Part shown: positions 24,978-29,647 of the stretch, in pieces
How the letters are laid out: each line of letters opens with the position of its first letter
Position numbering within the stretch: the stretch's first letter is position 1
Origin: Flavobacteriales bacterium
GTDB taxonomy: Bacteria; Bacteroidota; Bacteroidia; Flavobacteriales_D; Crocinitomicaceae
NCBI GenBank assembly: GCA_018883325.1
Contig: VEQH01000002.1
Span: 1 to 64,000 of the forward strand
Direction of reading: 5' to 3'
Length of the DNA: 64,000 nucleotides
Program-made: the position numbers and the translations under genes
The notes under the pieces: model-generated
What the model was told of the DNA's origin: nothing
Database searches by the model: none
The model's input: only the letters and a program-made list of their open reading frames with translations

Positions 24978-25064
24978 GGAGGGATGGGTGAGTGGCTGAA
25001 ACCACCAGTTTGCTAAACTGACGTACGGGTAACTGTACCGCGGGTTCGAATCCCGCTCCCTCCG
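24978..25064 (+). tRNA. tRNA-Ser (GCT)
   Basis: GGAGGGA/TCCCTCC acceptor, TTTGCTAAA anticodon loop, long variable arm, GGGTTCGAATCCC T-arm. Confidence 0.95.
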
Positions 25065-25156
25065 CAACGAAGTAAAGGAGTAGCTGGATGAGAATCCGCA
25101 GGGTTCGTCCCGTAGCGTAGCGAAGAGCACCGAAGGTAATCCCGCTCCCTCCGCAA
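25065..25156 (+). repeat. Partial duplication of the tRNA-Ser 3' end, interrupted in the T-loop by a 30-bp insert
   Basis: 19-bp AATCCCGCTCCCTCCGCAA repeated at 25049 and 25138; second copy reads GGGTTCG-[TCCCGTAGCGTAGCGAAGAGCACCGAAGGT]-AATCCCGCTCCCTCCGC. Confidence 0.85.
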
Positions 25157-25213
25157 AAAAAAATGAATGAAAGTTATTTATTTCAAATCTATTGTTTATT
25201 AGAAATAAATTAC

Positions 25214-25221
25214 TACTTTTG
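25214..25221 (+). promoter_or_regulatory. -7 element TACTTTTG upstream of tRNA-Pro
   Basis: TAnnTTTG match. Confidence 0.45.
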
Positions 25222-25274
25222 CACTCGCTTTCCGAAAGACGTTTGGAAAGAATTGAAATAACTAGATGATTACT

Positions 25275-25349
25275 CGGGGCGTAGCGTAGTCCGGTCATCG
25301 CGCCTGGTTTGGGACCAGGAGGTCGCAGGTTCGAATCCTGCCGCCCCGA
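25275..25349 (+). tRNA. tRNA-Pro (TGG)
   Basis: CGGGGCG/CGCCCCG acceptor; CCTGGTTTGGGACCAGG anticodon arm; GGTTCGAATCC T-loop. Confidence 0.95.
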
Positions 25350-25350
25350 C

Positions 25351-25383
25351 AAAAAGGGGGATGATCTTTCATCCCCCTTTTTT
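25351..25383 (+). terminator. Intrinsic terminator after tRNA-Pro
   Basis: AAAAGGGGGATGA-TCTT-TCATCCCCCTTTTTT. Confidence 0.85.
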
Positions 25384-25446
25384 GATTAAACTAGTTGTTA
25401 CATTTTTAGTTGAAAGAATTATTCTTACGACTGCGAAATAAATTCT

Positions 25447-25495
25447 GGTCCCGTAGCTCAGCTGCCTGTCTACCGACAGGTAGAGATAGAGCAAC
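25447..25495 (+). pseudogene. Truncated 5' copy of tRNA-Arg with a ~21-bp palindromic insertion in the D-loop
   Basis: GGTCCCGTAGCTCAGCTG-[CCTGTCTACCGACAGGTAGAG]-ATAGAGCAAC vs intact GGTCCCGTAGCTCAGCTGGATAGAGCAAC at 25750. Confidence 0.85.
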
Positions 25496-25514
25496 AGAGA
25501 ATAAATAATTGACA

Positions 25515-25772
25515 ATGAAACATTTTGTTTATGTGTTAAAAAGTCAAATTCACTGGAGGTTTTACGTTGGAATGACAACCAATGTAGATAAAAGAGTGGG
25601 AGAACATAATCGTGGATATACAAAATCCACAAAGGCTTACAGACCTTGGGTTTTATTCTTTTTTGAAGAATACGAGACAAGAGAAGAGGCAAGGAAACGT
25701 GAAATATATCTCAAAAGTGGGATAGGAAAAGAAAAAAATAAAGAATTTTGGTCCCGTAGCTCAGCTGGATAG
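25515..25772 (+). CDS. GIY-YIG nuclease family protein; C-terminus (WSRSSAG*) encoded inside tRNA-Arg
   Basis: MKHFVYVLKSQIHWRFYVGMTTNVDKRVGEHNRG...EEARKREIYLKSGIGKE; stop TAG at 25770-25772. Confidence 0.9.
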   Translation: MKHFVYVLKSQIHWRFYVGMTTNVDKRVGEHNRGYTKSTKAYRPWVLFFFEEYETREEARKREIYLKSGIGKEKNKEFWSRSSAG

Positions 25773-25823
25773 AGCAACTGCCTTCTAAGCAGTAGGTCTT
25801 TGGTTCGAATCCAAACGGGATCA
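25750..25823 (+). tRNA. tRNA-Arg (TCT)
   Basis: GGTCCCG/CGGGATC acceptor, CTGCCTTCTAAGCAG anticodon arm, GGTTCGAATCC. Confidence 0.95.
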
Positions 25824-25833
25824 CACAAACACA

Positions 25834-25866
25834 AGCCTTTCAAGAGAAATTTTGAAAGGCTTTTTT
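25834..25866 (+). terminator. Intrinsic terminator after tRNA-Arg
   Basis: GCCTTTCAA...TTGAAAGGC + T6. Confidence 0.8.
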
Positions 25867-26065
25867 GTTTATCCCCATTTTTATTGACCTTAGAACAATT
25901 TCAGATAACCCAATCAATCAAAGTGATATTTGCTGATTTGGTAGTTCTTGCAATGAAATTTGGTTTGGTGTGTCAAAAAGTGTGCACATTATTTTGATGA
26001 AAGGTGTGAATTAAAGAACTAGAGGAATTAATAACTATTTTTGAAAATATCAGTAATTTGCACCC

Positions 26066-27637
26066 ATGTCAGAAGAACAAAAAAAACAACTCGAACAACA
26101 GCTTTGGAATATAGCAAACACCCTTAGAGGCAAAATGAATGCTGATGAATTTCGTGATTACATTCTTGGATTTATCTTCTTCAAATACCTTTCAGAGAAA
26201 ATGGAAATCTTCGCTGATGCAATATTGAAACAAGACAAGATAGCATTTAAAGCTATCAACGAAAACACAGCTCAAGGTCAAGAATTAATCCAAGCAATTC
26301 GTGAAGAATCTTTAGAACAATTAGGGTATTTCTTAAAACCAAGCGAACTATTCAGTGAAATTGCAAAACGTGGAAACAGTGATGTAGAAGGTCAAAGTAA
26401 TTTCATTATTGAAGACTTACAAAAAGTGCTGATTAATATTCAGCAAAGCACCATGGGAACTGAAAGCGAAGATGATTTTGATAATCTCTTTGAAGACATG
26501 GACCTCAATAGCACCAAATTAGGCAAAACACCTGTTGATAGAAATGAAATCATTGCTAAAGTACTTTCGCACCTTGACAAAATAGATTTTGCATTAGAAG
26601 ATACAGAATTAGATGTTTTGGGTGATGCCTACGAATATTTGATAGGTCAATTTGCCAGTGGAGCAGGAAAAAAAGCAGGTGAATTCTATACACCGCAACA
26701 AGTAAGCACCATTCTAGCAAGAATTGTAACACTCGGAAAAACAAAACTTAAATCTGCTTACGATCCCACATCGGGAAGTGGTTCGTTGCTCTTGAGAATC
26801 GCTCGGCAAGTAAAAGAAGTAAACATGTTCTACGGTCAAGAAATGAACAGAACCACTTACAACCTTTGCCGAATGAATATGATTTTACACGGCGTTCATT
26901 ACCGTAAATTCGACATAAAACAAGAGGACACATTAGAACACCCACAACATTTAGGTTTAACCTTTGAAGCAATCGTTTCAAATCCACCTTTTTCCGCTGA
27001 GTGGAGTGCCAGCCAATTATTCACAACCGACGACCGTTTTTCACAATACGGAAAATTAGCCCCAAGTAGCAAAGCAGATTATGCGTTTGTGCAACACATG
27101 ATTCATCATTTAGCAGAAAATGGCACAATGGCAATTGTTTTACCGCATGGTGCATTGTTTCGTGGAGGAGCCGAGCAACACATACGCAAATACCTTATCC
27201 AAGAAAAAAATTACCTAGATGCTGTGATTGGTTTACCTGCAAATATTTTTTACGGCACCAGTATTCCAACTTGCATTTTGGTCTTTAAGAAATGTAGAGA
27301 AAACCCTGAAAATGTTCTGTTCATTGATGCAAGTAATAATTTTGAAAAAGTAAAAACACAAAATACGCTGAGCGATGAACATGTTGATGCCATTATCGAA
27401 ACATACAGCAAGCGAACAGAACTAGAAAAATACAGTAAAATTGTACCACTTTCAGTTATTGAAGAAAACGACTACAATCTCAATATTCCTCGTTATGTAG
27501 ATACCTTTGAAGCAGAGGAACAAATTGATATTGAAAGCATTGCAAAAGAATTACAAGCATTTAAAAAAGAAACACAAAACACCGACAAAGAATTAGCTGC
27601 TTTTTGTAAAGAATTAAATATCTCAACACCGTTTTAA
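26066..27637 (+). CDS. hsdM: Type I restriction-modification DNA methyltransferase subunit
   Basis: LWNIANTLRGKMNADEFRDYILGFIFFKYLS, GEFYTPQQVSTILARI, DPTSGSGSLLLRI, VSNPPFSAEW. Confidence 0.96.
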   Translation: MSEEQKKQLEQQLWNIANTLRGKMNADEFRDYILGFIFFKYLSEKMEIFADAILKQDKIAFKAINENTAQGQELIQAIREESLEQLGYFLKPSELFSEIAKRGNSDVEGQSNFIIEDLQKVLINIQQSTMGTESEDDFDNLFEDMDLNSTKLGKTPVDRNEIIAKVLSHLDKIDFALEDTELDVLGDAYEYLIGQFASGAGKKAGEFYTPQQVSTILARIVTLGKTKLKSAYDPTSGSGSLLLRIARQVKEVNMFYGQEMNRTTYNLCRMNMILHGVHYRKFDIKQEDTLEHPQHLGLTFEAIVSNPPFSAEWSASQLFTTDDRFSQYGKLAPSSKADYAFVQHMIHHLAENGTMAIVLPHGALFRGGAEQHIRKYLIQEKNYLDAVIGLPANIFYGTSIPTCILVFKKCRENPENVLFIDASNNFEKVKTQNTLSDEHVDAIIETYSKRTELEKYSKIVPLSVIEENDYNLNIPRYVDTFEAEEQIDIESIAKELQAFKKETQNTDKELAAFCKELNISTPF

Positions 27638-27639
27638 CC

Positions 27640-28893
27640 ATGGAAAATAAAACACCAAAATTGCGCTTTCCAGAGTTTAAAGGAGAATGGGAAAAGAAAA
27701 AATTGGGTGAAGTTGCGCAATTTTCTAAGGGAAAAGGTATTTCAAAAGCTGATATTACCGAAAATGGTGAATTTGAATGTATTCGATACGGAGAGCTTTA
27801 CACTGTTTATGGAGAGACAATTGACTTGATAAAATCAAGAACTAATATCCCTTCAAAAGATTTAGTTTTTAGCGAATCAAACGATGTAATTATTCCAGCT
27901 TCTGGTGAAACACAAATCGATATTGCGACTGCTTCATGTGTATTAAAATCTGGAATTGCATTGGGTGGAGATTTGAATATCATTAAGTCTAATAAAAATG
28001 GTGTTTTTCTTTCATATTACTTAAACAGTTCTAAGAAAAAAGAAATTGCAAATTTAGCACAAGGTATTTCCGTAGTTCATTTATACTCGAGTCAATTAGC
28101 ATTATTAAACCTTAACTTTCCCTCCCTACCCGAGCAAACCAAAATAGCTTCTTTCCTTACAGTTGTAGATAAAAAAATTAGCGAACTCAAAAAAGAAAAA
28201 AGTCTGTTAGAGCAATATAAGAAAGGCGCAATGCAACAAATTTTCTCGCAAAAACTTCGCTTTAAACCATCACCAATTGAAGCTCTCGAAATCGGCAATG
28301 CTTACCCTGATTGGGAGGAGAAGAGATTGGGGGAGATAGGCGAAACCTATAATGGTCTTACAGGTAAAACGAAAGAAAATTTTGGATTTGGAAAACCATA
28401 TATTCAATACAAGCAGATTTTTGATAATAGTCAAATTGATATGTCAAGATTTGAAATGGTTGATATTTCAGAGAATGAGAAGCAAAATAAGGTAAAATTT
28501 GGTGATGTATTTTTTACTGTTTCATCTGAAACCCCAAAGGAAATAGGTATGAGTTCGGTGTTATTAGATAACGTTGAAGAATTATATTTGAATAGCTTTT
28601 GTTTTGGCTATCGAGCAAATTCATTAGAAATATTAAGCCCATATTTCTCTCGATACTTATTTAGAAGTGAAATTTTTAGAACTGAAATTATAAAATTAGC
28701 ACAAGGTAGTACACGCTATAATATGTCTAAAGTTGAATTAATGAAATTAAAAATTAATTTACCCTCCCTTCCCGAACAAACCAAAATCGCTTCATTCCTT
28801 TCCAGCATTGACAAAAAGATAAGTGATGTTGATTTTCAATTGGAGAAAATAGTTGTTTGGAAAAAAGGTTTGTTGCAGCAGTTGTTTGTGTAA
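27640..28893 (+). CDS. hsdS: Type I restriction-modification specificity subunit (two TRDs)
   Basis: TPKLRFPEFKGEWEKKKLGEVAQFSKGKGI; LPSLPEQTKIASFL...DKKIS repeated after each TRD. Confidence 0.95.
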   Translation: MENKTPKLRFPEFKGEWEKKKLGEVAQFSKGKGISKADITENGEFECIRYGELYTVYGETIDLIKSRTNIPSKDLVFSESNDVIIPASGETQIDIATASCVLKSGIALGGDLNIIKSNKNGVFLSYYLNSSKKKEIANLAQGISVVHLYSSQLALLNLNFPSLPEQTKIASFLTVVDKKISELKKEKSLLEQYKKGAMQQIFSQKLRFKPSPIEALEIGNAYPDWEEKRLGEIGETYNGLTGKTKENFGFGKPYIQYKQIFDNSQIDMSRFEMVDISENEKQNKVKFGDVFFTVSSETPKEIGMSSVLLDNVEELYLNSFCFGYRANSLEILSPYFSRYLFRSEIFRTEIIKLAQGSTRYNMSKVELMKLKINLPSLPEQTKIASFLSSIDKKISDVDFQLEKIVVWKKGLLQQLFV

Positions 28894-28894
28894 T

Positions 28895-29647
28895 ATGGAC
28901 AATAATTTAGTATCAAAATATTATTTATTCATCGACGAAAGTGGTGATCACGGTTTGGTTAGCCTTGATAATTCTTTCCCTGTGTTTTTACTATGCGGTT
29001 TATTAACATCGGAAGAAAATTACGATTCTATAAAATCCAACATAAATGAACTGAAACATTTCTTTTGGAAAAATAAATCAGTTATTCTTCACTCTAGAGA
29101 CATAAGAAAATGTGAAAAAGAATTTCAAATTTTATTTGATTTAGATGTTAAAAAACAATTTTATGAAAAATTAAATAACGTCATTATAAATAGTAATTAC
29201 CGAATAATATCTTCTGCAATTAACAAATCTAAGTACATTAGCACTTACGGAAAACTATCAAATGACGTTTATGAAATTGCATTGTCTTTTATTATCGAAA
29301 GAGCAATTTTTTGTTTAGATGAAATTAAAAGTCATCAAAAGCAACTTGAAATTATAATAGAAAAAAGAGGTAAAAAAGAGGATAAAACCTTATCAGAACA
29401 TTTTCAACGTTTAGTTGCCAGAGGTACTACTTATGTTACTCCTGATAGATTAAAAGCAATCGGGATAAAAATCACTTTTAAGGATAAAAAAGACAATATA
29501 AATGGTTTGCAAATGGCAGATTTATTGGCTTATCCATTAGCTAGATATGTTATTGATTCAAAGCGTGCAAATCCAGCGTTTGACATATTAGAAAACAAAA
29601 TTTATCACAAAAATGGAAAACGCTATGGTCTTAAAATTTTCCCTTAA
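28895..29647 (+). CDS. DUF3800 domain-containing protein
   Basis: KYYLFIDESGDHGL N-terminus, NGLQMADLLAYPLARYV C-terminus; ATG 1 nt after the hsdS stop. Confidence 0.88.
   Translation: MDNNLVSKYYLFIDESGDHGLVSLDNSFPVFLLCGLLTSEENYDSIKSNINELKHFFWKNKSVILHSRDIRKCEKEFQILFDLDVKKQFYEKLNNVIINSNYRIISSAINKSKYISTYGKLSNDVYEIALSFIIERAIFCLDEIKSHQKQLEIIIEKRGKKEDKTLSEHFQRLVARGTTYVTPDRLKAIGIKITFKDKKDNINGLQMADLLAYPLARYVIDSKRANPAFDILENKIYHKNGKRYGLKIFP

Follow-up and report, generated by a model that had tools for sequence, protein, structure and literature searches.

SegB, encoded by phages T4 and T6, is a free-standing GIY-YIG homing endonuclease found beside tRNA genes of many isotypes, and its report describes tandem amplification of the tRNA and nuclease unit, as well as microhomology between the 5′ end of the tRNA and the 3′ end of the nuclease gene (PMC13096335). 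Another example is given by the mobile ORFs of fungal mitochondria (Allomyces atp6; Glomus atp6, atp9, cox2 and nad3). There, an endonuclease ORF inserts into a gene and brings with it a replacement gene end, the native end being displaced beyond the ORF (PMC3630166). For tRNA-linked GIY-YIG elements of bacterial chromosomes, no description was found in the literature, as covered incompletely by open-licence papers. The locus described here points to what is apparently an undescribed and widespread family of very small mobile elements that target tRNA genes. Judged from sequence comparisons, its unit is probably (at roughly 70%) a minimal tRNA-specific element of the homing type, carrying a tRNA arm that restores the gene.

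The inserted unit and its nuclease gene

The window, meaning the whole 64-kb stretch of DNA analysed, comes from a genome of 4.06 Mb and contains a cluster of genes for tRNA-Ser(GCT), tRNA-Pro(TGG) and tRNA-Arg(TCT) at positions 24978-25824, with the inserted unit lying between the last two (Table 1). Read towards the intact tRNA, the unit consists of tRNA-Arg nucleotides 1-18, a 20-nt palindrome, tRNA nucleotides 19-29, a 19-nt spacer and an 85-aa ORF; the copied tRNA sequence in the pseudo-tRNA-Arg thus amounts to 29 nt, split after nucleotide 18 by the palindrome. The longest exact repeat in the region 25351-25900 measures 19 nt, against 16 nt in the best of 500 Markov shuffles, and the 16-mer core of the palindrome has a single occurrence in the whole genome. 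The first-pass annotation had reported a repeat (GGTCCCGTAGCTCAGCTG) shared by the start of the unit and the 5′ end of the intact tRNA-Arg(TCT), a GIY-YIG ORF between the two copies, and final codons of this ORF within the tRNA. All three were confirmed, the 3′ end of the ORF overlapping the tRNA by 23 nt, with its last codons and stop being tRNA sequence. The truncated tRNA copy reported upstream is also present, but it is longer than claimed (29 nt, of which 18 had been seen) and contains the palindrome, which had been overlooked.

Table 1. Features of the unit at tRNA-Arg(TCT), in window coordinates
Feature	Position	Strand	Remarks
Whole inserted unit, 303 bp	25447..25749	+	Missing from empty sites of the same genus
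Pseudo-tRNA outer arm = tRNA-Arg nt 1-18	25447..25464	+	Identical to 25750-25767
20-nt palindrome CCTGTCTACCGACAGGTAGA interrupting the pseudo-tRNA	25465..25484	+	Hairpin fold, z -3.5 (50-nt region)
Pseudo-tRNA inner arm GATAGAGCAAC = tRNA-Arg nt 19-29	25485..25495	+	Match to intact tRNA-Arg
GIY-YIG nuclease ORF, 85 aa	25515..25772	+	ATG 25515, stop TAG 25770-25772; PF01541
Intact tRNA-Arg(TCT)	25750..25824	+	ARAGORN, Rfam

The ORF product belongs to the GIY-YIG family by its PF01541 score (55.5 bits, with a curated cut-off of 22.6), and residues Y5, Y16, G18, R26 and E62, which represent the conserved Tyr, the Tyr-x-Gly, the Arg and the Glu, are invariant in 20 aligned rows. The predicted structure shows a GIY-YIG fold (pLDDT 90) in which the tRNA-encoded tail is poorly defined, and the nearest solved structures are UPF0213 BH0048 (1zg2), Slx1 and the catalytic domain of I-TevI. 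Weak matches were obtained with the homing-endonuclease family phrog_314 of PHROGs (E=0.0022) and with NCBIfam grpIintron_endo, the latter under its cut-off. The early suggestion that the ORF end is shaped by the tRNA holds in so far as the tail is tRNA sequence; because model confidence is low at the tail and ORFs located 3′ of a tRNA have no such tail, it looks incidental. The 303-bp unit encodes no integrase, the GIY-YIG ORF being its sole gene, so the tyrosine recombinase by which tRNA islands are recognised is absent. A phage or plasmid origin was considered and rejected, relatives there being weak at best; 13 phage records gave weak partial matches, all of which covered less than 80% of the query.

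Elsewhere in the window, HsdM and HsdS of a type I restriction-modification system and a DUF3800 protein are encoded 3′ of the tRNA-Arg (26066-29647). At 25066-25155, the 3′ end of tRNA-Ser(GCT), AATCCCGCTCCCTCCGCA, is repeated after that tRNA, and a tandem unit of about 95 bp with a tRNA-Ser(GCT) 3′ fragment and without an ORF was seen in relatives (L063, L067, L068, L036 and L080).

Occupied and empty sites in the genus

Comparison of the tRNA-Arg(TCT) loci of relatives, proposed together with the original annotation, found both occupied and empty alleles in the genus. Many same-genus genomes have empty sites with the order Ser-Pro-Arg, one intact tRNA-Arg and neither ORF nor duplicate, and in several of them the tRNA-Arg is identical to that of the window at 75 of 75 positions. 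In genome G148 (L068) both flanks match the window, and the empty site is therefore orthologous. Such sites support the proposal that an element inserted 5′ of the tRNA and rebuilt its target by partial duplication. At the orthologous gene, the unit is either absent or present; at the loci surveyed, it lies on the strand of the tRNA, with an intact tRNA left in place. A unit of the 303-bp type also occurs in four other related assemblies, with the same palindrome and split position, and forms tandem arrays with a 304-bp period in two of these four (L035 and L038/L007); the L038 contig stops short of the intact tRNA. The ORF is under strong purifying selection, with dN/dS of 0.05-0.09 across the window-type ORFs of related assemblies and 6 synonymous and 0 nonsynonymous changes between the tandem ORF copies of L035. 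One copy of the ORF, that of L037/G126, is broken by an in-frame stop.

Other members of the genus carry, at the same tRNA, a different GIY-YIG lineage (38-43% identity) on the downstream side, together with a 3′ tRNA fragment. Pseudo-tRNA-Arg copies without an ORF, with a palindrome (TCCGCCACGGCGGA or a decayed form), were observed 5′ of the intact tRNA at L079, L080, L082, L083 and L084, and L079 contains four of them in tandem with a length of 69 bp each (about 1225-1500). Over 28 loci from the genus, tRNA-Arg(TCT) shows a mean difference of 10%, against 1% for the tRNA-Pro next to it. This variability was rejected as proof of arm replacement and is suggestive at most, tRNA-Ser(GCT) being variable too.

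Distribution across tRNA genes and ORF lineages

The first of two surveys collected relatives of the ORF from the family and from public genome contigs, giving 125 distinct ORFs. A tRNA gene lay within 400 bp of 97 of them, upstream of the ORF in 66 and downstream in 31; a pseudo-tRNA could be aligned for 75 of these 97, and in 63 of the 75 it contained a perfect inverted repeat of 6 bp or more. The second survey searched 247 Bacteroidota genomes, many of the surveyed genomes being metagenome-assembled, with a profile of 20 ORFs, which had hits in 158 genomes (up to 21 in a single one) and in 88 of 123 genera. A tRNA was found at 45 of 49 loci, a few of which overlap one another, and every one of the 45 had a pseudo-tRNA, 37 of them with palindromes. 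The nearby tRNA, where there was one, was always on the strand of the ORF in both surveys (97/97 and 45/45), counts that do not stand for as many independent events, because the loci were found through ORF similarity and are not independent draws. Because genomes assembled as one contig also contain arrays (3 to 5 units), these are not contig-edge artefacts.

The target tRNAs include those for Arg, Leu, Phe, Met, Asp, Asn, Ser, Ala, Gly, Pro, Glu, Gln, Val, Cys and His. Many different tRNA genes throughout Bacteroidota show this arrangement, which is also found in some other phyla, Chlorobiota and Patescibacteria among them. The family mostly adjoins tRNA genes with partial tRNA repeats and is not, as the first-pass annotation had allowed for, scattered over unrelated places. 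Several ORFs of the first survey without a nearby tRNA are surrounded by tRNA fragments or follow a same-strand tmRNA. At two such loci, L055 and L127, the ORF lies about 155-170 bp after the tmRNA gene on the same strand, and a search for a tmRNA fragment 3′ of the ORF found none at either. At L109 and L033 (also L095 and L021), family ORFs interrupt a transposase-like gene in antisense orientation, immediately ahead of a motif such as HPHIHMIVPAGG; this gene, named by motif alone, is a second conserved target of the ORF family.

The ORF lineages were followed on a tree of 92 ORFs, which has few columns and many open forks, with 300 shuffles for comparison. On this tree, tRNA species required 38 changes (lowest shuffle 58), palindrome family 10 changes over 49 rows (lowest shuffle 27), the side of the tRNA 15 changes (lowest shuffle 19) and host genus 55 changes (lowest shuffle 63). 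The few changes of palindrome family indicate that the palindrome tends to pass down with the ORF. In different genera, related ORFs adjoin one and the same tRNA species, and one Met lineage extends across eight genera, mostly with a TCCGTC-type palindrome. Within the limits of a few-column tree, target specificity appears to be retained within ORF lineages across hosts.

These distributions bear on an unlikely explanation in which nothing moves at present: old duplications of a tRNA with a resident GIY-YIG gene, unequal crossing-over and vertical descent would have produced the loci, the palindromes being ordinary dispersed repeats that happened to enter a tRNA copy the cell can do without. 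Tandem arrays would fit unequal crossing-over, some palindromes are indeed dispersed repeats and some ORFs are broken (L037). However, the many tRNA species, the several host phyla and the presence or absence at one locus of a genus would demand repeated gain or loss, the palindrome 16-mer is unique in the genome of the window, and the recurrence of related ORFs at one tRNA species in different genera also argues against it.

Palindromes, proposed mechanism and known systems

Where the ORF lies upstream of the tRNA, the outer arm of the pseudo-tRNA, which points away from the ORF, is 22 nt long at the median (quartiles 21-23); where the ORF lies downstream, the median is 24 nt. The identity of the outer arm to the intact tRNA is 98% and 96%, respectively, compared with 90% and 88% for the inner arm, on the ORF side of the palindrome (paired Wilcoxon p=6e-8, n=71). 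This contrast fits an outer arm that would be the displaced tRNA end of the host, the remainder being element-borne, but it is no proof of displacement, because gene conversion would likewise keep the outer arms identical. The palindrome lay in a tRNA loop in 43 of 86 cases, compared with 38% expected (p=0.015), positions that hinge on gapped alignments; the candidate rule that it always lies in a loop was weakly supported and was dropped for the outer/inner arm test. Palindrome sequences vary widely among lineages, and some genomes have scattered members of the same types without an ORF or tRNA in the vicinity. That the palindrome is a mere genomic repeat of the window host was rejected, its 16-mer occurring once in that genome and its family following the ORF. 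Some pseudo-tRNAs (L092, L136, L056, L025 and L142) have long hairpin inserts of 57-89 nt, and L025 and L142, at different tRNAs of one genome, have a near-identical 57-nt insert in common.

The frequency of palindromes in alignable pseudo-tRNAs and their inheritance with the ORF could also mean that the split pseudo-tRNA is the working part, its hairpin, as a DNA cruciform or single strand, serving as substrate of a structure-selective GIY-YIG nuclease (cf. Slx1), so that movement would start there and not at the intact tRNA. Slx1 is among the nearest folds, and ORF-less repeats of pseudo-tRNA and palindrome exist (L079); yet every GIY-YIG domain shares the Slx1 match, the palindromes of one lineage can be very unlike those of another, and similar palindromes occur scattered in some genomes away from any ORF, and this origin of movement is given a low probability. 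It is very improbable that the ORF is a host gene, such as a repair nuclease, kept by tRNAs for co-transcription with the tRNA fragments incidental, since strong purifying selection and constant co-orientation of ORF and tRNA, which would suit it, are met by patchy presence within the genus, many different tRNAs, several copies per genome, and related ORFs inserted within a transposase-like gene.

The homing-type reading is preferred because of the empty sites, the arrays, the co-orientation, the arm identities, the ORF tree, the dN/dS values, the GIY-YIG fold and the precedents, SegB (PMC13096335) and the fungal mitochondrial mobile ORFs (PMC3630166), which work in related ways. Cutting, its position and transfer are steps that we infer as follows. 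The nuclease would cleave the tRNA gene where the palindrome now lies, or close to it, and repair of the break would copy in the unit of an occupied allele. With this unit would come the tRNA arm on the ORF side, whereby a functional tRNA is rebuilt. The displaced arm of the host would persist beyond the palindrome, forming the outer arm of the pseudo-tRNA, and the cut site would there be interrupted by the palindrome. An ORF upstream of the tRNA would replace the 5′ arm, as in the window, and an ORF downstream the 3′ arm. If the rebuilt tRNA were cut again and repaired from the sister, further units and hence arrays would follow. Several points weigh against the homing model. The intact tRNA of an occupied allele should keep the target, unless the recognition site includes the flanks, so that self-protection is unaccounted for; breaking a cut site needs less than a palindrome; ordinary unequal crossing-over between direct repeats could yield the arrays; and the palindrome is not always in a tRNA loop.

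A bolder and tentative reading is that the units may constitute a class of minute tRNA parasites, so far undescribed, that occurs in Bacteroidota, Chlorobiota, Patescibacteria and other phyla; the palindrome-split tRNA would be needed for function and be recognised by a structure-selective GIY-YIG enzyme, and repeated arm replacement would have driven the divergence of tRNA genes. If the homing-type reading is true, a role would be found for the many short GIY-YIG genes listed in public records only as "GIY-YIG nuclease family protein", and the partial tRNAs and tRNA-linked tandem repeats of Bacteroidota genomes would be accounted for. The units would then be a bacterial counterpart of gene-end-replacing homing elements, using essential tRNA genes, and the rewriting of tRNA genes by such elements becomes testable from the unequal divergence of tRNA-Arg(TCT) and tRNA-Pro over the 28 loci.

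UPF0213 proteins are not known to be mobile or tRNA-linked. In sequence and fold, the single-domain GIY-YIG proteins of that group (1zg2, 1ywl) are the closest solved structures. REP-type dispersed palindromes (PMC3733652) resemble those of the units in being short and, in some hosts, scattered over the genome, whereas the palindrome described here lies inside a pseudo-tRNA, is inherited with the ORF and has no HUH transposase in its unit. The fungal mobile ORFs differ in that they concern mitochondrial protein genes, encode LAGLIDADG or GIY-YIG enzymes, have no tRNA target and, in the cases described, replace the 3′ end (PMC3630166). The likeness is greater with SegB, also a GIY-YIG enzyme next to many tRNA isotypes, with tandem tRNA and nuclease units; SegB is phage-borne, and the passages on it describe neither a palindrome-split pseudo-tRNA nor a rebuilt tRNA (PMC13096335). 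The present units, in contrast, lie in bacterial contigs, encode a protein of 85 aa and carry the split pseudo-tRNA.
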